Source of the DNA: Chthoniobacter flavus
GTDB lineage: Bacteria; Verrucomicrobiota; Verrucomicrobiia; Chthoniobacterales; Chthoniobacteraceae
Direction: 5' to 3'
DNA: 37,526 nucleotides
Assembly (NCBI GenBank): GCA_945861435.1
Contig: CAMAUX010000055.1
Span: 1-37,526, forward strand
The notes under the pieces are model-generated. The model ran no database searches, had not been told where the DNA came from, and worked only from the letters and a program-made list of their open reading frames with translations. Below, piece after piece: positions 24,767 through 35,365 of the stretch (the first letter of the stretch is position 1; each line of letters starts with the position of its first letter). The translations under genes and the position numbers were made by a program.

Positions 24767-27139
24767 TTATGCGGCTGCAGAGCCGGGCTTGGGCGTGGGA
24801 TCGACGGAGCGGAGGATGGTTTGGATGTCGAGGAGGTCGGTGACGCGGTCCTGGATGACCACGGAGCCGAGGATGCCGTTGCCGTAGGCGTGGCGTTTGA
24901 CGGTGATGGACTCGTTGACGATGTCGTCGATGTTGCCGACGATGAGGCCGACGCTGCGGTTTTTCTCGGAGTAGACAACGACCTGCATGGTGTCGGCGTC
25001 GTCCTCGGGAGTGTGACCGTTGTCCGGCAGATAATCTGCGACGCGGACGAGTGGGAGGATCTGGCCGCGGTAACGGATGACGGCCTGGCCGCCGGAGTAT
25101 TCCATGGCGGAGCGTGGGAACTCCTCGAGGCGTGCGACGGTGGAGAGGGGGATGGCGAGGCGGCTGCCCTTGCCTGAGCCGAAGAGGAGGAGGGTCTGGC
25201 GCTGGTCGTCGGCTTTGCGGGTGTGTGCGGCTTCGTGGAGATTGTTGCGGTCGTGGATCTCGGAGACGATGGAGGCGCGCTGTGCGAGGCCGAGGACGTC
25301 GAGGATGAGGGCGACATGGCCGTCGCCCATGATGGTGGCGCCGGCGAAGCAGGTGACGCCCTTGAGTTGTTTGCCGAGCGGTTTTACGACGATCTCCTGG
25401 GTGTCGTTGATTTCGTCGACGACGAGGCCGAACGGGTAGCCGTCCGCCTGAACGACCACGATGTGGATCTCGCCGCGGAGTGCGACCTCGGGAGCGTCGT
25501 GCAGCTTGAGTTCGCGGTTGAGGTAGACGAGCGGGAGGAGTTTTCCGCGGAGGCGGTAAACGGGAGCGCCGTGGATGAGTTCGATCTGCTTGGTCTGCGC
25601 GCCTTCGAGGCGGACGAGTTCGAGGAGGCTGACCTGCGGGATGGCGAACTGCTCGCCGCCGCTCGTGACGATGAGCGCGGGGATGATGGCGAGGGTGAGG
25701 GGGATCTTGATCTTCAGGGTGGTGCCGACGCCGAACTGGCTGTGGATGTCGACGGTGCCGCCGATTTTCTCGATGTTGGTTTTGACGACGTCCATGCCGA
25801 CGCCGCGGCCGGAGACGTTGGTGACCTTCTCCGCGGTGGAGAAGCCCGGCATGAAGATGAGGTGGAAGGCCTCGTGATCGGTCATGCGCGCGGAGTGCTC
25901 GCTGGTGATGAGTCCGCGGGAGACGGCCTTCTGTTTGACGCGTTCGATGTGGATGCCGCCGCCGTCGTCGGAGATCTCGATGTTGACCTGGCCGCCCTCG
26001 TGGTAGGCGCGCATTTTGAGGCAGCCTTCGCGGGGCTTGCTGCGTTCCGCGCGGCCTTCCGGAGATTCGATGCCGTGATCGACGGAGTTGCGGACAATGT
26101 GGGTGAGGGGGTCTTTGATGGCCTCGATGATGGTCTTGTCGAGTTCGGTGTCCTTGCCCTCCATGTCGAGGCGGACCTCCTTGCCACACATGGAGGCGAG
26201 GTCGCGGACGACGCGCGGGAGCTTGTTCCAGATGTTGCCGATGGGCTGCATGCGGGTCTTCATCACGCTGCCTTGGAGCTCGGTGGTGATGAGGTTGAGG
26301 CGCTGCGAGGTGGCAAGGAACGCGCTGTCAGCGTGCTGCGTGGTGAACTGGAGGACTTGGTTGCGGGCCAGAACGAGTTCGCCCACGAGGTTGACGAGTT
26401 TGTCGAGAAGACTGACGTCGACGCGGATGGAGCTCTCGGAAGCTGCAGAGCCGCGGGGTTCGTGCGCGTCGGCGGTTGGAGCGGCCGGGGGTGTTGCGGG
26501 GGCGGCGGATGCTGCGACGGCCGGGGCGGCGGGGGCTGCTGCGGGAGGAGGAGTAGGTGCGGAGATGGGAGTAGGAGTAGGAGTCGGAGGAAGAGAAGCC
26601 GCGGGTGGCTCCTGCGGGACTTCAGCGAGGACGGGGGCGGAGGGAGGATCGACCGGTGCCGGAGCGGAGGCTTCGACCACGGGATCGACTGCTGGAGCGG
26701 GTTCCGAGGCGATCTCCGGTGCGGGTGCAGCGGCGACGGCGGCCGGCGCGGGGGAGTCGGAGGGGCCATCCTTGAGCTGCGCGAGGAGGGCGATGAGTTC
26801 GCTGTAATCGCGTTCCGCGGGAGAGCCCGTGGCCTCGATCTCCGCGAGCATGGTGCGCACGGCGTCGACGGTGGAGAGGAGAGCGCCGGCAATCTGCGGG
26901 TTGATGACCAGAAGGCCGTCGCGCATTTTGCTCAGAAGGTTTTCGCCAACGTGAGCGACGGCTTCGAGCTTGCCGAAGCCGAGGAATCCACTGGAACCCT
27001 TGAGGGTGTGGATCGTGCGGAAGATGCTTCCGAGGGTTTCGCTGTCGTGCGGATCCTTCTCAAGGTTGACGAGGTCGCGTTCGAGACGGTCGAGGTTCTC
27101 GTGGCTTTCGATGAGGAACTCTTTGAGGATTTCGTCCAT
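24767..27139 (-). CDS. cheA: CheA histidine kinase with two CheW-like domains
   Basis: From the ATG at 27139 the protein has 790 residues; the frame remains open upstream but that part is not family-like. HPt domain 1-115 with phospho-acceptor His44 (IHTLKGSSGFLGF). Residues 125-235 are a Pro/Ala-rich linker where a P2 (CheY/CheB-docking) domain is usual. Dimerisation domain about 237-300 (DVSLLDKLVNLVGELVLARN). ATPase domain about 305-480 with N-box HIVRNSVDHGIE (347-358), DDGGG (391-395) and GRGVGMDVV (444-452). Then a first CheW-like domain (about 483-625) and a second (about 640-780). It phosphorylates CheY and CheB in response to the receptor. It heads the cluster, divergent from uvrA with 78 bp between. 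Confidence 0.95.
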   Translation of the reverse strand: MDEILKEFLIESHENLDRLERDLVNLEKDPHDSETLGSIFRTIHTLKGSSGFLGFGKLEAVAHVGENLLSKMRDGLLVINPQIAGALLSTVDAVRTMLAEIEATGSPAERDYSELIALLAQLKDGPSDSPAPAAVAAAPAPEIASEPAPAVDPVVEASAPAPVDPPSAPVLAEVPQEPPAASLPPTPTPTPISAPTPPPAAAPAAPAVAASAAPATPPAAPTADAHEPRGSAASESSIRVDVSLLDKLVNLVGELVLARNQVLQFTTQHADSAFLATSQRLNLITTELQGSVMKTRMQPIGNIWNKLPRVVRDLASMCGKEVRLDMEGKDTELDKTIIEAIKDPLTHIVRNSVDHGIESPEGRAERSKPREGCLKMRAYHEGGQVNIEISDDGGGIHIERVKQKAVSRGLITSEHSARMTDHEAFHLIFMPGFSTAEKVTNVSGRGVGMDVVKTNIEKIGGTVDIHSQFGVGTTLKIKIPLTLAIIPALIVTSGGEQFAIPQVSLLELVRLEGAQTKQIELIHGAPVYRLRGKLLPLVYLNRELKLHDAPEVALRGEIHIVVVQADGYPFGLVVDEINDTQEIVVKPLGKQLKGVTCFAGATIMGDGHVALILDVLGLAQRASIVSEIHDRNNLHEAAHTRKADDQRQTLLLFGSGKGSRLAIPLSTVARLEEFPRSAMEYSGGQAVIRYRGQILPLVRVADYLPDNGHTPEDDADTMQVVVYSEKNRSVGLIVGNIDDIVNESITVKRHAYGNGILGSVVIQDRVTDLLDIQTILRSVDPTPKPGSAAA

Positions 27140-27217
27140 AGGAGACTGGGTGGTGGAAAGTGGGTGGGAGCGGCGGTCGGTTTTCTGGGGGGTGGGCGCA
27201 CCAAAAAAGCAGGTGCC

Positions 27218-30200
27218 ATGCCCGGTGGCCGGATTTTTTCGGTGGCGGGATTGCCAACGGGGCGGGTGCCGTCGAAAGTGGCGGTCCACCCCGTGAAGAA
27301 TCAATCATCGCAGCCAGAGGGTTCGCCGCGTGACGGCGCCCGGATCGAGGTGCGCAATGCGCGCCAGAACAACCTCAAGGGGTTCGACTTGGACCTGCCC
27401 TTGGGCGAGTTGATCGTGGTCACGGGCCCGAGCGGGAGCGGCAAGTCGAGTCTGGCCTTCGACACGGTTTATGCAGAAGGGCAGAGGCGTTACGTGGAGA
27501 CGTTCTCGCCGTATACGCGGCAGTTCCTCGAGCGCATGGACAAACCGCAGGTGGATGCGATCCGGGGAATCCCGCCGGCGATCGCCATTGAGCAGGCCAA
27601 TCCGGTGAAGAGCACGCGCTCGACGGTGGGGACGATCACGGAGATCAACGATTACCTGAAGCTGTTGCTGCCGCGCGTGATGGAGGCGCGCTGTCCAGGA
27701 TGCCGGCGGGCCGTGCGACCGGAGAGCGCGCGCTCGATCGTGGAGGCGCTGTTGTCGCGTGCTGCAGGAATGCAGGGCGCGGTGTCGGGTGTGGTGACGT
27801 TTCCCGTGCCGGTGCCTGCAGGCACGCCGCCTGCCGAGTTCTTCGGGTTTCTGCAGCAGCAGGGTTATCTTCGTGTGTGGATCGAGGGGCGCGCAGTGCG
27901 CACGGATGAACCGGCGGGAGTGGACCGGTTGCCGGCGCAGGTGGCGGTGATTCAGGATCGGGTGGCGCTGACTCAGGAGCATCGTTCACGCTTGAGCGAG
28001 GCCGTGGAGACGGGGCTGCGTTTTGGGAAGGGACGGTTGCTGGTGATGGTGCAGCAGGAGGGCGGTGCATCCGATGCGGTGTCCTTCTCGAGCGGATGGC
28101 ATTGTGCGGAATGCGACGTGGAGATCACTGCGCCGACGCCCGGGCTCTTCAGTTTCAATCATCCACTGGGAGCGTGTGCGAAGTGCCGCGGGTTCGGGCG
28201 GACGATCACGATTGACCTGGAGCGTGCGATTCCGGACCGCTCCCTGAGCATCGCGGAGGGAGTCGTGAAGCCGTTCCAATCGGAGAGCGGGAAGGAGTGT
28301 CAGCGGGATTTGTTGAAGGCGGCGCGTGCGCGCGGTCTGGATGTGCGCAAGGCGTTTGCGTCGCTGCCTGCGGAGGATCAGCGGTGGGTGTTGCACGGGG
28401 AGCGGCCCGCGGCGACGTCGGAGGAGAATTGGTCGGAGGGGCTTTGGTACGGGGTGAAGGGGTTCTTCGACTGGCTGGAGACGAAGGCTTACAAGATGCA
28501 CGTGCGCGTGCTGCTAAGCCGGTACCGGTCCTACGCGTTGTGCCCGGATTGCGGAGGCGGGCGGTACCGCGCGGCGACGTTGAACTTTCACTTGGACGGG
28601 CGGACGCTGCCGGAGTTGATGGCGCTGGGAGTGGGGGAGCTGGGGCGCGTGCTGGAGGCGCATGCGGTGCCTGCGGGCGACACCACGGCGGAGATGTTGA
28701 AGACGATGGTGGGATCGCGGTTGCGCTATCTGTGCGAGGTGGGGCTGGAGTACCTGAGTCTGGACCGGCCCACGCGCACGCTCAGCGGCGGCGAGATTGA
28801 GCGGGTGAATCTGACGACATGCCTTGGGGCGTCGCTGGTGAACACGCTCTTCGTGCTCGATGAACCCAGTGTGGGCCTGCATCCGCGGGACACGGTGAAG
28901 TTGATCGGCGTGCTCGAGCAGTTGCGCGACAAGGGCAACACGCTGCTGGTGGTGGAGCACGAGGAGGCGGTGATCCGCGCGGCGGATCATGTGGTCGAGC
29001 TCGGGCCAGGGCGCGGAGCCGCGGGTGGCGGCCTCGTGTTTTCAGGAACCGTGCCGCAGTTGATGCGCAGCAAGGGCACGCTGACGGCGGATTATCTGGC
29101 GGGCCGCCGCGGGATTGCGGTGCCGGAGAAGCGGCGCAAACCGGCGGGGTTTGTCCGCGTGGAAGGCGCGTCGGAGCACAATTTGCGCGGGGTCGATGTG
29201 GAGATTCCGCTGGGAGTTTTTGCGTGTGTGACGGGAGTTTCCGGCTCTGGGAAAAGCACGCTGGTGCACGAGGTGCTGTATGAGAACCTGCGGGTGGCGC
29301 TGGGGGAGGCGGCCGAGGAGACGCGGGGCGCATGCCGCGCGATCCATGGAGCGGAGCAGCTCGGGCAGGTGGTGATGGTGGATCAGTCGCCGCTTTCGCG
29401 CACACCGCGTTCCAGCCCGGCGGTGTACGTGGGGGTGTTCGAGGATATCCGCGAACTGTTCGCGCGCACGGCGGATGCAGCCGCGCGCGGCCTCGGTGCG
29501 AGCGCGTTTTCGTTCAACTCAGGCGTCGGACGCTGCGAGCGGTGCGGCGGTGGCGGCTTTGAAAAAATCGAGATGCAGTTTCTGAGCGACGTCTTCGTGC
29601 GCTGTCCGGAGTGCGAGGGGAAGCGGTACCAGGCGCATGTGCTGGAGGTGCGCTTGGAAGGGGCCGGCGGCGCGAAGTCGGTGGATGAAGTGCTGGGGCT
29701 GAGCGTGACCGAGGCGGTGCAGTTTTTTGAGGGAGTGCATGGGGCGGAGAAGATCGTGGCGCGGATCACCGGGCCTCTGCGCGTGCTCGAGGAGGTGGGG
29801 TTGGGATATCTGACGCTGGGCCAGCCGTTGAATCTGCTCTCTGGCGGTGAATCGCAGCGCATCAAGCTGGTGGAACGGCTGGTGGCTGGATCGAAGGGGA
29901 CGAAGGGCACGAAGGGACCGAAGGGCGCAACGAGCGCAAAGAGTGCAAAGAGTGCAAAGAGTGCAAAGAGTGCAAAGAGTGGAGATGGGAAAAAGGAAGA
30001 GGAGAAGAAGGGAGTGCTGCTGATCATGGATGAGCCCACGACGGGGCTGCATCTGGATGATGTGGCGGTGCTCGTGAAGGTGTTTGATCGGCTGGTGGAG
30101 CAGGGGAACAGCCTGCTCGTGATCGAGCATCATCTGGAGGTGATCAAGTGCGCGGATCATGTGATCGATCTCGGGCCGGAGGCAGGCGCGGGTGGCGGGT

Positions 30201-32977
30201 TGGTGGTGGCCACGGGCACGCCGGAGGAGGTGGCGCGCGTGGACGGATCGCACACGGGCCGCTTTTTGCGCGATGTTCTGGGGGGTGTTCTGGGGGGTGT
30301 TCTGGAGAAGGACGGTGGGCGATTTGCGCAACTTGCGCGAGTTGCAGAGGGGCGGGTCGCGGAAAAAGTGCCGCGGGTGGCGGAGGCCCGGAGCATCACG
30401 GTGCACGGAGCGCGGGAGCACAATTTGAAGAACATCTCGCTGCAGATTCCGCGGGACGAGTTGGTGATCATCACCGGGTTGAGCGGATCCGGGAAATCGA
30501 CGCTCGCGTTTGACCTGTTGTTTGCGGAGGGGCAGAGGCGTTTTCTGGACAGCATGTCGGCGTACGCGCGGCAGTTCGTGGAGCAGTTGGAGCGGCCCGA
30601 TGTGGACTTGATCGCGGGTCTGCCGCCGAGCGTGGCGATCGAGCAGCGGCTCACACGCGGCGGCGGAAAATCAACGGTGGCGACGGTGACGGAGGTTTAT
30701 CATTTCCTGCGTTTGCTCTACGCGAAGGCGGGGACGCAGTTCTGTCCGACGTGCGATGTGGCGGTGGAACGGCAGGCGCTTTCAGAAGTCGAGAAGCGTG
30801 CGGAGGCGCTTGCACGCAAGGGTCCGCTGCGGGTGCTGGCGCCGCTGGTGAAGGGGCGCAAGGGCTTCCACACGGAGGTGGCGGAATGGGCGGGGAGACA
30901 GGGGTTCACGACGCTGCGGGTGGACGGAGACTGGGTGGAGGTGGAGGGGTTTGAGAAACTGGAACGGTTCCGTGAACACACGATCGAGGTGCTGGTGGGT
31001 GCGGAGCGGGAGCCCGCAAAGGTGCGTGCGCTGGTGAAGCGTGCGCTGGAGATCGGGAAGGGGACGGCGCTGCTGCTCGATGGGCGGGGCAAGAGCACGG
31101 TGCTGAGCATTACGCAGAGCTGTCCCGGGTGCGGGGAATCCTTTGAGGATCTGGATCCGCGGCTGTTCTCGTTCAACTCGCCGCACGGATGGTGCGCGCA
31201 GTGCAATGGGTTCGGCGAGGTGTGGCGGCTTTCAGTGAATCCGAAGCTGGAGACGGAGGTGGAGCGGGAGATGGATGCGGAGCGTCAGCATGAGCAGTTG
31301 GAAGAGGGCGAGTCCGAGCCGTGTCCCGGGTGTGCGGGCGGTCGGTTGAATGCGGTGGCGAGGCACGTGCGCATCCATGGGGCGAGCATCGACGAGGTGG
31401 TGGGATGGAGCGCGAGCGCGGCTTCGCGCTGGATGGGGAAGCTGAAGTTCAGCGGAGTGCATCAGCGGATCGCGGCGGATATTTTACCGGAGATCCGGCA
31501 GCGGTTGCTGTTTCTGAGCGAGGTGGGGCTCGATTACCTCGCGCTGAACCGTTCGGCGAAGACGTTGAGCGGCGGGGAGTCGCAGCGCATCCGGCTGGCG
31601 GCGCAACTGGGGTCCAATCTGCGCGGGGTGTTGTACGTGCTGGATGAGCCGACGATTGGGCTGCATCCGCGGGACAACGCGCAGCTCCTCGACACGCTGG
31701 AGGCGCTCAAGCGCAAGGGCAACTCACTGGTGGTGGTGGAGCATGATGAGGAGACGATGCGCCGTGCAGACACCATCATCGACCTCGGGCCAGGGGCCGG
31801 AACGCGCGGCGGTCAGGTGGTGGCGTGCGGGACGCTCGCCGAGATCAAACGCAATCCGCAATCGGTTACCGGCCGGTGTCTGCGCGAGCCGCTGAGGCAT
31901 CCGGTGCGCGGCGGACGGCGGAGTCTCGCGGATGCAGAGCATTGGCTGGAAATCCGCAACGCTTCGCTGCGAAACCTGAAGGATCTGAGCGCGCGGATTC
32001 CGCTGGGCCGCCTGACGGTGATCAGCGGGGTGTCGGGTTCTGGAAAGAGCACGCTGATGCGCGGCGTGCTGAAGCCGGCGGTGGAGGCGGCGTTGAAAGG
32101 GGCACGGGGGCGCGGGAAGCGCGGTGCGGCTCTGGCGCAGGTGCGCGGGGTGGAGCGAGTGGAGGCGGTGTACGAGGTGGATCAGTCACCGATTGGAAAG
32201 ACATCGCGATCGACGCCCGCGACGTACCTCAATGTGTTCGACGAAATCCGGAAGCTGTATGCGCAGGTGCCGCTGGCGCGGATGCGCGGGTATACGTCGG
32301 GGCGGTTTTCATTCAACACGGAGGGCGGGCGCTGCGAGGGCTGCGGCGGGCAGGGGATGGTGAAGGTGGAGATGAACTTCCTGCCGGCGAGTCATGTGCT
32401 GTGTCCGGAGTGCGCGGGGCGGCGTTATGAGGCGGCAACGCTGGAGGTGCTCTACAACGGGAAAAGCATCGCGGATGTGATGGAGATGAGCCTCGAGGAG
32501 GCGGCGGTATTCTTTGCGCCAGTGACGAAGGTGGCGGGTCCTCTGCGGCTGCTGTGCGACACGGGACTGGGCTACCTGAAGCTCGGGCAGCCGAGTCCGA
32601 CGCTGAGCGGAGGCGAGGCGCAGCGGCTCAAGCTGGTGTTTGAACTCACGCGCGGGCTGGGGCGTGCGCGGGTGTCGCGGCGCCCGGACCGTTCGATTTT
32701 GTACCTGCTGGAGGAACCCACGATCGGGCTGCACATGGGGGATGTGACGGAGCTTTTGAAAGTGCTGCATCGGTTGGTGGACGAGGGCCACACGGTGGTG
32801 GTGATCGAGCATCATCTCAGCGTGGTGGCGGAGGCGGATTACGTGCTCGATATCGGGCCGGAAGCCGGGCCGGACGGAGGCGAGGTGGTGGCCGCGGGGA
32901 CACCGGAAGAGGTGGCAAGGGTGAAGCGCAGCCGGACGGCACCGTTCTTGCGGGAGGTGCTGGAGGCGGGGCATTAG
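27218..32977 (+). CDS. uvrA: UvrA, tandem-duplicated excinuclease subunit A
   Basis: 1919 residues from the ATG at 27218 (GTG starts at 27266 and 27293 are alternatives), about twice the usual ~940. UvrA finds DNA lesions and loads UvrB. Two complete UvrA units are fused. Four Walker A loops: GPSGSGKSS (70), GVSGSGKST (673), GLSGSGKST (1087), GVSGSGKST (1604). Walker B/D-loops: LDEPSVGLH, MDEPTTGLH, LDEPTIGLH and LEEPTIGLH. Both units have CxxC zinc modules (CAECDVE...CAKCRGFG; CERCGGGGF...CPECEGKRY; CPGCGES...CAQCNGFG; CEGCGGQGM...CPECAGRRY). Residues 891-931 are a low-complexity Lys/Ser/Thr/Gly/Glu insertion between the second signature motif and its Walker B. Chlamydial UvrA is likewise about 1790 residues, so the fusion fits the PVC group. 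The frame is open far upstream, antisense to cheA, but that is not coding. Confidence 0.95.
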   Translation: MPGGRIFSVAGLPTGRVPSKVAVHPVKNQSSQPEGSPRDGARIEVRNARQNNLKGFDLDLPLGELIVVTGPSGSGKSSLAFDTVYAEGQRRYVETFSPYTRQFLERMDKPQVDAIRGIPPAIAIEQANPVKSTRSTVGTITEINDYLKLLLPRVMEARCPGCRRAVRPESARSIVEALLSRAAGMQGAVSGVVTFPVPVPAGTPPAEFFGFLQQQGYLRVWIEGRAVRTDEPAGVDRLPAQVAVIQDRVALTQEHRSRLSEAVETGLRFGKGRLLVMVQQEGGASDAVSFSSGWHCAECDVEITAPTPGLFSFNHPLGACAKCRGFGRTITIDLERAIPDRSLSIAEGVVKPFQSESGKECQRDLLKAARARGLDVRKAFASLPAEDQRWVLHGERPAATSEENWSEGLWYGVKGFFDWLETKAYKMHVRVLLSRYRSYALCPDCGGGRYRAATLNFHLDGRTLPELMALGVGELGRVLEAHAVPAGDTTAEMLKTMVGSRLRYLCEVGLEYLSLDRPTRTLSGGEIERVNLTTCLGASLVNTLFVLDEPSVGLHPRDTVKLIGVLEQLRDKGNTLLVVEHEEAVIRAADHVVELGPGRGAAGGGLVFSGTVPQLMRSKGTLTADYLAGRRGIAVPEKRRKPAGFVRVEGASEHNLRGVDVEIPLGVFACVTGVSGSGKSTLVHEVLYENLRVALGEAAEETRGACRAIHGAEQLGQVVMVDQSPLSRTPRSSPAVYVGVFEDIRELFARTADAAARGLGASAFSFNSGVGRCERCGGGGFEKIEMQFLSDVFVRCPECEGKRYQAHVLEVRLEGAGGAKSVDEVLGLSVTEAVQFFEGVHGAEKIVARITGPLRVLEEVGLGYLTLGQPLNLLSGGESQRIKLVERLVAGSKGTKGTKGPKGATSAKSAKSAKSAKSAKSGDGKKEEEKKGVLLIMDEPTTGLHLDDVAVLVKVFDRLVEQGNSLLVIEHHLEVIKCADHVIDLGPEAGAGGGLVVATGTPEEVARVDGSHTGRFLRDVLGGVLGGVLEKDGGRFAQLARVAEGRVAEKVPRVAEARSITVHGAREHNLKNISLQIPRDELVIITGLSGSGKSTLAFDLLFAEGQRRFLDSMSAYARQFVEQLERPDVDLIAGLPPSVAIEQRLTRGGGKSTVATVTEVYHFLRLLYAKAGTQFCPTCDVAVERQALSEVEKRAEALARKGPLRVLAPLVKGRKGFHTEVAEWAGRQGFTTLRVDGDWVEVEGFEKLERFREHTIEVLVGAEREPAKVRALVKRALEIGKGTALLLDGRGKSTVLSITQSCPGCGESFEDLDPRLFSFNSPHGWCAQCNGFGEVWRLSVNPKLETEVEREMDAERQHEQLEEGESEPCPGCAGGRLNAVARHVRIHGASIDEVVGWSASAASRWMGKLKFSGVHQRIAADILPEIRQRLLFLSEVGLDYLALNRSAKTLSGGESQRIRLAAQLGSNLRGVLYVLDEPTIGLHPRDNAQLLDTLEALKRKGNSLVVVEHDEETMRRADTIIDLGPGAGTRGGQVVACGTLAEIKRNPQSVTGRCLREPLRHPVRGGRRSLADAEHWLEIRNASLRNLKDLSARIPLGRLTVISGVSGSGKSTLMRGVLKPAVEAALKGARGRGKRGAALAQVRGVERVEAVYEVDQSPIGKTSRSTPATYLNVFDEIRKLYAQVPLARMRGYTSGRFSFNTEGGRCEGCGGQGMVKVEMNFLPASHVLCPECAGRRYEAATLEVLYNGKSIADVMEMSLEEAAVFFAPVTKVAGPLRLLCDTGLGYLKLGQPSPTLSGGEAQRLKLVFELTRGLGRARVSRRPDRSILYLLEEPTIGLHMGDVTELLKVLHRLVDEGHTVVVIEHHLSVVAEADYVLDIGPEAGPDGGEVVAAGTPEEVARVKRSRTAPFLREVLEAGH
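29888..30010 (+). repeat. Microsatellite-like insertion inside uvrA
   Basis: A purine-rich tract encoding GSKGTKGTKGPKG, then five Ala-Lys-Ser units, then GDGKKEEEKK. The core is five perfect copies of the 9-bp unit GCAAAGAGT (29935-29979), preceded by GACGAAGGGCAC-like iterations. The length is a multiple of three, so the frame is kept. Confidence 0.9.
30275..30306 (+). repeat. 12-bp tandem repeat in the uvrA inter-unit linker
   Basis: GTTCTGGGGGGT occurs twice and is followed by GTTCTGGA, encoding VLGGVLGGVLE in the linker joining the two UvrA units. Confidence 0.85.
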
Positions 32978-33527
32978 GGCGCGGGCGTTCGTAGCCCTTG
33001 GATGGAGGCGGGTTGGCGGGCGGGGCGGTGAAAGGTGGGTGCCTTGTGTGCGCTTCAGAGACAGGCTCTCACACCAAGCACGGGCACCAAGGCGGGGAAG
33101 AGCGGGGAAGAGCGGGGAAGAGCGGGGAAGAGCGGGGAAGAGCGGTGTCTCCTGTCCCGAGTGGAATGGAGATAAGGGCACCGATCGTGCCTTGTGGAGG
33201 GGCCTGAGAAAGCAACAGGCACTCGCATTTCCCCTAGCGACGCGCCCCGGCAGGGTGCGCGAGAAGGCTGACGATGCGAGAAGATTTTGTCCCTTGCGGG
33301 CGCCTTGCTGGCGTCTCAACTGCGGGCATGGCCGATGGGAGGAATTGCTAATCCACCCCAATCGGGTAGCTTTGCGCTCGTGAGTGCTGGCGAATCCACC
33401 TCGGTTCGGGAACCCGTGCGCAAGCGCGTGGGGGGAAGTCTTGCGCGTGGAAATGCACTGGCGCGGGTGGACGCTCTGCGGCGCAATGCACATGCACTGT
33501 TGGGGGGGAAGTGGAAGCCCGACGACG
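32978..33527. other. Intergenic, no gene; short repeats
   Basis: 550 bp between uvrA and the nucleotidyltransferase pseudogene. It contains a fragment (33047-33080, GTGCGCTTCAGAGACAGGCT then CTCACACCAAGCAC) that matches 34547-34581 in the hairpin-repeat array, a 10-bp tandem repeat at 33092-33145, and a TTTTGTCCCTTGCGGGC phrase (33285-33301) resembling 34612-34628. No protein family is recognisable in any frame. Confidence 0.7.
33092..33145 (+). repeat. 10-bp tandem repeat (GCGGGGAAGA)n
   Basis: Five perfect copies of GCGGGGAAGA plus a partial one, in non-coding DNA downstream of uvrA. Confidence 0.95.
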
Positions 33528-33997
33528 ATGGAACATTCGTTCGAAAAATTGTTGGGGCGTCTCGCTGAGGGTGACGTCCGGTTCATCCTCGTGGGCGGGC
33601 TTGCCGTGGCACTGCACGGATACGTGCGCCTCACCGAGGATGTGTGCTGATCGAATCGTCGGAGGAAAATGTCCGCCGCTTTCTCGTTTGCCTGTCAAAC
33701 TTTGGCGCGGGTTACGCCCGTGAACTCAGTGCCGCAGATTTCACGGATGAGGAGGGGGCAATCCGAATCGTGGAGGAGACCGAGCACTGCCAGTTGGATG
33801 TGTTCACACGCATGTCCGGGTTGCGCTACGGAGACCTTGAGCCGGATGCGCTGAGGCACACGCTCGGCAGGCACACGTTTTTCTACGCATCAAAGAGCGC
33901 CCTCATCCGCATGAAGTCCGCTTCTGTCCGTGAAAAGGATCACCTCGACGTGCTCGCGCTTCGCCGTCTGGAGCAGGATCCCAACGCATTCCTCTGA
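33528..33997 (+). pseudogene. Broken nucleotidyltransferase (AbiEii/DUF6036-like)
   Basis: The frame from the ATG at 33528 reads MEHSFEKLLGRLAEGDVRFI, LVGGLAVALHGYVRLTEDVC and stops at 33650. The rest continues in another frame from 33644 (VLIESSEENVRRFLVCLSNF ... KDHLDVLALRRLEQDPNAFL, stop at 33997). Joined, they form a ~155-residue nucleotidyltransferase of the type seen with toxin-antitoxin and abortive-infection systems: GG...TEDVD(L/V)LI. The break is a net loss of one base modulo three (a 4-base loss restores a good reading) and falls exactly on the expected second catalytic Asp. A sequencing error is possible. Confidence 0.75.
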
Positions 33998-34718
33998 GCC
34001 GGCCGGGCTCAGAAAGGCCCAGAAAGGCCGATATTTTGCCTGTCCCTGGTTCCCTCACACCAAGGCACAGAGGCACCAAGAAAAACTCCCAATCACCAGA
34101 ACGCATCTCCCCTTGGTGCCGTTGTGCCTCCGTGTGAGAACCCTGAACTGCACCCCACACCATGGCTTCATGCCGTTTTGTGAGACTCAGAGATGGCAGA
34201 AAGGGGGCATACACGAGGGCAGTGGAAACGGAGATTTTGCCTGTCCCTATCCGCACACTATCGGCATTCCCTCACACCAAGGCACAGAGGCACCAAGAAA
34301 AACTCCCAATCACCAGAACGCCTCTCCCCTTGGTACCGTTGTGCCTCCGTGTGAGAACCCTGAACTGCACCTCGCACCATGGCTTCATGCCGTTTTTGTG
34401 AGACTCAGAGATGGCAGAAAGGGGGCAGACACGAGGGCAGTGAAACGGAGATTTTGCCTGTCCCTATCGGCACACCAAGGCACAGAGGCACCAAGAAAAA
34501 CTCCCAATCACCAGAACGCATCTCCCCTTGGTGCCGTTGTGCCTCCGTGCGCTTCAGATGCAGGTTCTCACACCAAGGCACCAAGCTCACCAAGCGGTAA
34601 GGAACGGATATTTCGCCTGTCCCTTGCGGGCTTTGCCATTTTTGGATTTGCGGTGGTGCCCGCCCGTCATCGTGGTGGGGTGGCGCAGCAGGCGTGGGTG
34701 TGGTAGTGTTGGGCCATA
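33998..34718. other. Gene-free stretch before the toxin-antitoxin pair
   Basis: It is occupied by the hairpin-repeat array. The last ~90 bp (34626-34718) are ordinary spacer leading to the antitoxin gene and contain no obvious promoter. A plus-strand open frame spans most of it (33930-34706), but its sequence simply repeats with the DNA repeat. Confidence 0.8.
34030..34625 (+). repeat. Tandem array of a ~217-bp hairpin repeat, ~2.5 copies
   Basis: Units begin near 34030, 34228 and 34448 with GAnATTTTGCCTGTCCCT and share a GAACTGCACC...CCATGGCTTCATGCCG block (34143-34228 and 34360-34447). Each unit holds a long inverted repeat: arms 34054-34080/34112-34138, 34271-34297/34329-34355 and 34471-34495/34527-34550 (CACACCAAGGCACAGAGGCA against CTTGGTGCCGTTGTGCCTCC), with a loop of about 31 bases that is nearly identical in all three. 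A fourth TGTCCCT core is at 34612. Open frames through this stretch are repeat translations, not genes. Confidence 0.9.
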
Positions 34719-34946
34719 GTGAAATTCACCCGCATGACGCGCGATCCGAATACGATGGGCGGAAGGCCCTGTATCCGCGGCCTTCGAGTGACTGTGGGTT
34801 CGCTCGTCGGGATGGTGGCTGCCGGGCGTTCCGTGGATGAGAATCTGCGTTTGCACCCGTATCTCGTTGCGGAGGACATCCGCGAGGCCCTCGCGTATGC
34901 AGCTTGGCGGGTTGAGGAGATCGAGCTCCCTCTCGTGGCGGGGTGA
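34719..34946 (+). CDS. DUF433 antitoxin (VapB-like)
   Basis: 75 residues from a GTG at 34719 (an ATG at 34734 is the alternative). The sequence MKFTRMTRDPNTMGGRPCIR followed by GLRVTVGSLVGMVAAG is the DUF433 signature, with the helix-turn-helix-like second half LRLHPYLVAEDIREALAYAAWR. DUF433 proteins pair with DUF5615 PIN-like toxins as in this window. It probably binds the toxin and represses the shared promoter. The toxin gene begins 41 bp downstream. Confidence 0.85.
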   Translation: MKFTRMTRDPNTMGGRPCIRGLRVTVGSLVGMVAAGRSVDENLRLHPYLVAEDIREALAYAAWRVEEIELPLVAG

Positions 34947-34987: not shown

Positions 34988-35365
34988 GTGGCGGTGAGAG
35001 TGCTGGTCGACATGAATCTCTCCCCTGACTGGGTGGGGTATCCCACCGAGGCTGGTTTCGAAGCGGTACATTGGTCGGCGATCGTTGCCGGCAATGCCCC
35101 GGACGCGGTGTTGATGAGTTGGGCCCGGGACAACGAACATGTGGTTTTTACGCATGACTTGGATTTCGGAATCCTGCTTGCCCACAGTAAGGAGGGAAGG
35201 CTGAGCGTGATTGAGACGCGCGCTCGCGATTTGTCTGTGAATCACATCGGGGTGTTGGTGGTTGGGGCATTGCGCGCCCATGAGGACGCGCTGGAGCGCG
35301 GGGCGCTCGTCACTGTGGACGAGGTCAGATCGGGGATTCGGATCTTGCCGATCTTACCTGGTTGA
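34988..35365 (+). CDS. DUF5615 PIN-like toxin
   Basis: 125 residues from a GTG at 34988, preceded by GGTGAGGGAGGGG, a usable ribosome binding site. VRVLVDMNLSPDWVGYPTEA, WARDNEHVVFTHDLDFG and SVNHIGVLVVGALRAH are typical of the DUF5615 (Mut7-C-like PIN) family; Asp8 and the acidic THDLDFG block are the expected metal-binding residues of an RNase. With the upstream DUF433 gene it forms a VapBC-like toxin-antitoxin unit. Both genes look intact. Confidence 0.85.
   Translation: MAVRVLVDMNLSPDWVGYPTEAGFEAVHWSAIVAGNAPDAVLMSWARDNEHVVFTHDLDFGILLAHSKEGRLSVIETRARDLSVNHIGVLVVGALRAHEDALERGALVTVDEVRSGIRILPILPG

Follow-up and report, generated by a model that had tools for sequence, protein, structure and literature searches.

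Tandem gene-less hairpins in a Chthoniobacter flavus genome share arms and loop with hairpins flanking a GxxExxY gene

Several described systems come close to the hairpin array discussed here. Bacterial MITEs and other non-autonomous inverted-repeat elements are, like the array, short, gene-less and multicopy, with inverted repeats and with a gene elsewhere in the genome that lies between the same ends. The array differs from them in that no target-site duplication is seen and in that its partner gene encodes a PD-(D/E)XK protein (GxxExxY) that is not a known transposase; arms of the GxxExxY type differ further in being tandem 7-mers that vary between elements. The intervening sequences of 23S rRNA that carry IVP (S23, a four-helix bundle) also have a small gene between inverted arms, and the arms of the IVP family are likewise tandem with a 7-nt unit. 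The GxxExxY element differs from these in lying outside rRNA genes, in belonging to another protein family and in its unit spacing of 8-10 nt. IVP genes have been reported in rRNA insertions of CPR bacteria, the protein being called functionally uncharacterised in the part of that report cited here (PMC11270868). The heptanucleotide repeats of cyanobacteria and Beggiatoaceae resemble our elements in having tandem 7-nt units that are intergenic or hairpin-forming and patchily distributed (PMC4679880; PMC3488679). As far as the cited parts of these two papers go, the TAACTGA heptamers of Beggiatoaceae, cyanobacteria and Bacteroidetes are directly repeated, no mechanism of transfer being evident (MacGregor 2015, PMC4679880), and in the tRNA-Leu intron of Nostoc the heptanucleotide repeats form a hairpin by pairing (PMC3488679). 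The same parts present such repeats as direct repeats or an intron stem (P6b) and describe no inverted arms around a nuclease gene. REP/RAYT systems share with the array dispersed intergenic hairpins that are possibly spread in trans; the array differs in that no RAYT association was found for it. We know of no function for GxxExxY proteins, and our literature searches found no statement that links heptad hairpin repeats to GxxExxY genes.

The window, by which we mean the whole stretch of 37,526 nucleotides of C. flavus DNA that was analysed (contig C55, 1-37526), holds three tandem hairpin units at 34030-34625 (Table 1), as had been noticed in a preliminary description made from this DNA alone. 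That description supposed a constant unit of about 217 bp. The first spacing between unit starts is indeed 217 nt; the second is 198 nt, the third unit being shorter. A 130-nt direct repeat starts at 34050, 34267 and 34465, its second and third copies being 97% and 70% identical to the first. The arms of about 27 bp and the loop of about 31 bases, described as almost identical in three units, are present in all of them (25-27-nt arms, 31-nt loop), except that the arms are imperfect, 85% complementary in hairpin 1 and 81% in hairpin 3, with mismatches that the copies have inherited. Two further remarks were accurate, namely that the spacer between hairpins is duplicated (34176-34227 against 34394-34445, 96% identity) and that a fragment recurs upstream of the array. 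An 18-nt motif, TTGCCTGTCCCT, occurs with at most one mismatch from 34030, 34231, 34448 and 34607. The arm itself consists of three 7-mers one base apart, CACCAAG-G-CACAGAG-G-CACCAAG, which gives a spacing of 8 nt, and the opposite arm is made of related 7-mers, inverted.

Table 1. Hairpin array and related features of the window (positions in the window)
Feature	Positions	Strand	Details
Isolated fragment: arm with outer flank	33047..33080	+	33048-33078, 90% identical to 34547-34577
First TTGCCTGTCCCT motif copy, left border of the array	34030..34047	+	direct-repeat family
Hairpin 1	34054..34138	+	5' arm 34054-34080, loop 34081-34111, 3' arm 34112-34138; arms 27 nt, 85% complementary, 31 nt apart
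Unit 1 spacer	34139..34248	+	ends with TTGCCTGTCCCT motif 34231-34248
Hairpin 2	34271..34355	+	5' arm 34271-34297, 31-nt loop, 3' arm ending at 34355; inverted arms detected at 34273-34297/34329-34353
Unit 2 spacer, near-copy of spacer 1	34356..34465	+	ends with TTGCCTGTCCCT motif 34448-34465
Hairpin 3	34470..34552	+	5' arm 34470-34495, 31-nt loop, 3' arm 34527-34552 with altered outer end; arms 26 nt, 81% complementary
Additional half element with one arm, GCTTCAG..GGTTCTCACACCAAGGCACCAAG	34547..34594	+	direct-repeat family; similar stretch in locus L019 at about 636-690
Last GCCTGTCCCT motif copy, right border of the array	34607..34624	+	direct-repeat family

Each unit was expected to form a strong hairpin if transcribed, and RNA folding agrees with this: hairpins 1-3 reach -42.0, -35.3 and -37.7 kcal/mol (z = -8.7, -6.3 and -5.9), and in each case all 200 shuffles were less stable. 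The open reading frames of the array are overlapping mechanical ones, and no gene was identified within the hairpins. The GxxExxY gene is absent from between the arms of the window, whose 31-nt loops are gene-free; these copies are derivatives or relatives of the complete element. No tRNA gene was found in the window, nor any Rfam family at its gathering score. This includes rRNA matches, and the array was rejected as a 23S rRNA intervening sequence, to which its arms are alike in design only.

The surroundings of the array have several features of their own. A DUF433 and DUF5615 gene pair (34719-34946 and 34988-35365) adjoins it, and a DUF5615-like gene was seen by eye beside the hairpin cluster of contig C88 as well (L012). 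A perfect 10-bp tandem repeat, GCGGGGAAGA, runs for 5.4 copies at 33092-33145. The UvrA-like frame at 25223-32977 is 2584 aa long and matches UvrA domains twice; such frames have 1572-1939 aa in relatives, most with two matches to the C-terminal part of the window frame. The stretch 33520-33997, read by eye, is presumably the remnant of a nucleotidyltransferase gene broken near 33640, and its part 33644-33997 has no Pfam match.

The preliminary description had left room for a duplication confined to this locus. With one unit as a BLAST query, 91 clustered matches were found on 22 contigs of the same genome (5.35 Mb in 105 contigs), among them C1, C5, C9, C10, C18, C29, C52, C70 and C88, several of the clusters lying close to contig ends. 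A stricter scan of the window and 20 other stretches fetched from this genome gave 27 complete hairpins in nine stretches. In the conserved arm columns of these 27 hairpins 96.5% of positions are paired. In the variable columns the figure is 55.6%, against a mean of 59.5% in reshuffled arms, 990 of 1000 reshuffles being as high. Since variable columns pair no better than reshuffled arms, the copies within this genome inherit their mismatches and pairing is not repaired; the compensatory changes that had been looked for among them are absent. Across genomes, by contrast, whole arms vary in concert, as described below.

The hairpin element was also thought to have combined with the TTGCCTGTCCCT repeat, and the two do occur together. 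GCC[T/G]GTCCCT, found in the window at 4, 235, 304, 2298, 2442, 2771, 2796, 34038, 34239, 34456 and 34615, is a separate dispersed repeat, which 10 of the 20 other fetched stretches with hairpins also contain. A further composite repeat that includes several small palindromes (CGCGACGCGCCCCGGC..., ATGCCTCCGGCATG...) is seen by eye to interleave with hairpin clusters, in the window at 33230-33270 and in L010, L012, L013 and L020.

One cluster, on contig C1, surrounds a gene. The GxxExxY gene at C1:99266-99613 has three matches to the unit on each side (C1:98926-99245 and 99845-100192, minus strand), which align over 86-114 nt of the query with 74-78% identity, and four of the six are complete hairpins under the stricter scan. 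Two shorter matches lie nearby, at 99655-99693 and 99800-99857. Arm and loop are those of the window, in the opposite orientation. The gene product matches TIGR04256 (E 1.5e-37) and PF13366, PDDEXK_3 (E 1.6e-35), which places it in the PD-(D/E)XK nuclease superfamily. Its structure prediction, from an alignment of two sequences, has a mean pLDDT of 50.6, and a sequence search of solved structures gave just two matches, both at chance level. Judged by arms and loop, the hairpins of the window are homologous to those on both sides of the C1 gene and share ancestry with them; that the nuclease mobilises them is something we infer. Hence we consider it probable that the three tandem units of the array are gene-less, MITE-like copies of a hairpin element which, in its gene-bearing form, includes a gene for a GxxExxY nuclease. 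The idea of a MITE-like non-autonomous element, which the preliminary description had put forward, holds good for the anatomy, for the many copies and loci and for a gene in the same genome with hairpins of the same arm and loop. No movement of the element was observed.

The main competitor of this shared-element reading is that the hairpins are passive repeats, slippage-prone intergenic palindromes that spread by local duplication or segmental copying, into which GxxExxY genes merely land or home. We regard this as possible, if rather doubtful. Tandem arrays occur at several loci, as it would predict, and some GxxExxY genes lie between complete hairpins, not inside one (L018, L034, L058). Heptamer repeats have moreover been proposed to favour slippage, in the part of the work cited here (PMC4679880). 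What such a scheme explains less readily is how regularly the arms stand on both sides of this particular gene. GxxExxY is present in 28 of the 40 genomes of the host family, all drafts. For each gene we took the 300 bp on either side, reverse-complemented the downstream piece, aligned the two locally and set a score of at least 16 as the threshold. Merging rows that were adjacent or shared a frame and dropping two sub-cut-off matches left 69 family loci (L180 was unused), or 68 without L169, whose flank is too short. Arms were found at 53 of these 68, against none of 30 PIN-toxin genes of the same 40 genomes, where even a score of at least 13 is never reached. Shifted pseudo-genes gave 0 of 53 and swapped flanks 49 of 1341, the latter being above zero partly since loci at the same site have words in common.

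Outside the family 22 of 34 loci reach the same score, the shifted control covering family loci only. These 34 comprise 26 from genomes found by a hairpin pattern and eight plasmid loci; L240 (too short), L226, L233 and L236 (sub-cut-off) and eight further rows were excluded. Four of the eight plasmid loci have arms (Bacteroides finegoldii, Gemmatirosa, Bernardetia and Sphingomonas), and the cassette in the Sphingomonas of the plasmid set is placed between fabD and fabG. Below the threshold are 15 of the 68 family loci and 12 of the 34 outside loci, four plasmid loci included. The hairpin pattern, which is exact and blind to genes, occurs in 16 stretches of GTDB genomes, and in two of them a GxxExxY gene lies no more than about 40 bp from a hairpin. 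In Planctomyces (L034) the order is hairpin, gene, hairpin, hairpin; in Sphingomonas (L035) the gene is about 10 bp from the hairpin and the upstream arm is degenerate. The two are counted among the 34 outside loci as L235 and L218, L218 being below the threshold. The GxxExxY family is present in 9 of the 12 genomes found by the pattern, with no match in Treponema (G040), Rhodobacteraceae (G042) and Glacieibacterium (G050), assemblies that are possibly incomplete. Inverted arms of three tandem units of about 7 nt, spaced 8-10 nt apart, flank most examined GxxExxY loci in several phyla. A few frames of 308-388 aa carry two GxxExxY domains in tandem (G000:C40:31852-32607, which is L172, and also L161 and L167), and these have inverted arms too.

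The arms resolve into three units on each side in 77 of 79 elements with an arm score of at least 15, with spacings of 8 (143 cases), 9 (124) and 10 nt (41). Identity among the six units is 0.866 within an element, 0.666 between genomes at the same site (66 pairs, within exceeding between in 58) and 0.489 between different sites. Our extraction of arms maximises unit identity, and column-shuffled arms with the inverted repeat kept reach 0.529, with a maximum of 0.71, in the 63 equal-length arms of the 77 that this control covers. One site has CACGAAA in one element and CACGAAT in another, the final base being uniform across all six copies in each; CGCAGAT (L061, L144) likewise stands against CGCAGAG (L079), six of six in each. 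Between pheS and pheT we find CGCGGCG and CGCGACG, again six of six in each, alongside CACNAAG and GCGAAG forms. Mixed units are present in L165, L141 and L068. By these comparisons the six 7-mers of an element evolve in concert, incompletely in some elements. Passive repeats could behave in this way, for slippage combined with palindrome correction could yield a concerted change of 7-mers.

They would not be expected to follow the nuclease, and the arms do follow it. In a tree of 92 GxxExxY proteins (100-125 aa, no internal stops; 117 aligned columns, many forks unresolved) several clades have a common arm word across sites. A CAGGAA clade has six rows and a CGCAGAG/CGCAAAG clade eight. A clade of 23 rows, which includes the gene of our genome, has by eye mostly CACNAAG or CGCNAAG words, with rows from Planctomycetes, Spirochaetes, Brocadiaceae, Verrucomicrobium and Sphingomonas. 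For seven of the 15 site groups a single branch separates the group from the rest of the tree, and because of this much of the pattern must be taken as inherited in place, not freshly inserted. The correlation between protein identity and arm similarity at different sites is 0.352 (Spearman; 2421 pairs, 71 elements), and none of 2000 permutations was as high, the best giving 0.133. Arms and nuclease are thus related in sequence, and they are so across different sites, which argues against purely passive repeats.

The predicted nuclease keeps residues of catalytic type. E22 (90 of 92 proteins), D62 (90), E72 (79) and K74 (89) are conserved together with G19 (90), Y25 (87), Q86 (80) and Y90 (86). 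We take this order, E-D-ExK and then QxxxY, to resemble the RecB/Cas4 branch of the PD-(D/E)XK superfamily. In one study, to judge by the part cited here, a pipeline-called GxxExxY gene stood where the authors expected cas4 (PMC8934634).

Gene-less copies follow the word as well. The pattern CACCAAG-N-CACNNAG-N-CACCAAG has 21 hits in our genome (G000), 18 in G039 and four in G032, of which 19, 15 and two lie outside the GxxExxY locus of that genome. These are different genera, each with a GxxExxY locus, among those fetched, that uses the CACCAAG word. The other 37 genomes have one hit each in four of them, and the reversed control has none (Fisher p 0.0035). CGCAGAT copies occur elsewhere in 5 of 7 carriers and 6 of 33 non-carriers (p 0.011), or in 4 of 5 and 7 of 35 once two carriers with degenerate arms are left out (p 0.015). 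All these p values concern two words that we picked ourselves, in genomes that are not independent. An exception is G035, with 12 CGCAGAT hits (five of them overlapping, in one array) and that arm at neither of its two GxxExxY loci.

The junction of pheS and pheT allows different states of one site to be compared. Matches to pheT were found in 36 of 40 genomes, and 30 loci were examined; 21 junctions were readable and nine were not (contig end, other gene order or unreadable). Thirteen of the 21 are empty (0-60 bp). A GxxExxY element is present in G023, G028 and G033, and two more, in G019 and G025, were found through their GxxExxY loci; all five are oriented as pheST. In G035 and G038 the junction holds a gene-less hairpin with CGCAGAT arms and a second hairpin of other words nested in its loop, and in G036 a CGCAGAT arm with other heptad arms and no complete CGCAGAT pair; in their genus-mate G034 it is empty (5 bp). 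The 516 bp at the junction of G037 contain units that resemble CAGGAA and CACGAAG, and no GxxExxY match was found on the pheS-pheT contigs of G035, G036, G037 and G038. In G031 the junction spans about 790 bp and its ends are without arms. The same junction is thus occupied by nothing, by a gene-bearing element or by a gene-less heptad hairpin in different genomes. No target-site duplication or exact insertion boundary could be discerned across the junctions compared, none of the empty sites being sufficiently close. As for the uvrA-like loci of relatives, arms occur in the 1.4 kb downstream at none of nine, our own locus having them; the flanks are not collinear, so there is no clean empty site here either. 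The nested hairpins in L119 (G035) and L117 (G038) look like one element inserted into another.

The heptad design is not limited to GxxExxY, because genes of a second family are flanked by inverted arms of 7-mers. Four-helix-bundle genes (TIGR02436) occur in 30 of the 40 family genomes, and the one that was checked belongs to PF05635, 23S_rRNA_IVP. Of their 30 loci (L081-L110), 22 reach the threshold of 16 for inverted repeats on their two sides. The 7-mers are different ones, vary from locus to locus and are mainly of 7-nt period, with a mean self-identity of 0.69 at lag 7. This likeness to 23S rRNA intervening sequences lends some weight to the idea that the elements act at the level of RNA, their arms forming a stem in polycistronic mRNA that shields the insertion or lets RNase III excise it. 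The strong RNA folds of the array hairpins and the insertions within the gene pairs pheS-pheT and, in Sphingomonas, fabD-fabG would suit such a role, as would the heptanucleotide hairpins of the Nostoc tRNA-Leu intron, which according to the part cited base-pair as RNA (PMC3488679). A stem selected as RNA fits poorly with the variable arm columns of the copies in our genome, which show no covariation, and we consider it unlikely that RNA is the level at which the elements work. It is very improbable that the elements originated as REPs dispersed by a RAYT (Y1) transposase. They are intergenic hairpins and the genome has six Y1_Tnp matches, but each arm is made of three 7-mers and is no single short palindrome, and a search that allowed up to two mismatches found no arm at any Y1 locus (L045-L050, six stretches of 2.2-3.3 kb), on which ground we rejected this origin. 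Integron attC sites or a cassette array, with hairpins among small toxin-antitoxin-like genes, can hardly be credited at all: the DUF433/DUF5615 pair borders the array and 11 of 40 family genomes have an integrase over the cut-off, yet the PIN genes of the family are without arms (0 of 30) and our genome has no integrase over the cut-off (best 84 bits against 265).

Several suggestions can be made as to how an element shared by the array and the GxxExxY gene might work. Granted such an element, we would give about even chances to its mobility being driven by the nuclease. The nuclease may act on its own arms, as cruciform, as single-strand hairpin DNA or as RNA. Once the arms were cut, the element and any gene-less copies bearing those arms could reach further intergenic sites by copying or homing. 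Slippage inside an arm and snap-back copying between arms would keep the six units alike, and local tandem duplication would then produce arrays such as that of the window. The gene-less array and the hairpins flanking the nuclease gene together suggest an undescribed kind of selfish DNA element. A wider and more tentative suggestion, which we hold to be possible and would not call likely, is that an undescribed class of bacterial selfish elements comprises two branches, one with GxxExxY and one with IVP genes. Their ends would be defined by a design, three inverted tandem heptads, with a lineage-specific word that is rewritten in all six copies, and a RecB/Cas4-like nuclease would recognise and copy the word and mobilise gene-less hairpins that bear it.

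Whatever the mechanism is, the arms tie the GxxExxY proteins, and the equally obscure IVP proteins, to a role that can be tested, and such a role would explain intergenic hairpins common to several phyla. Related genomes in which the six short units at a given site have been rewritten together offer a natural system in which to study repeat homogenisation. The heptad arms also allow one to ask whether a nuclease co-evolves with a drifting recognition word.
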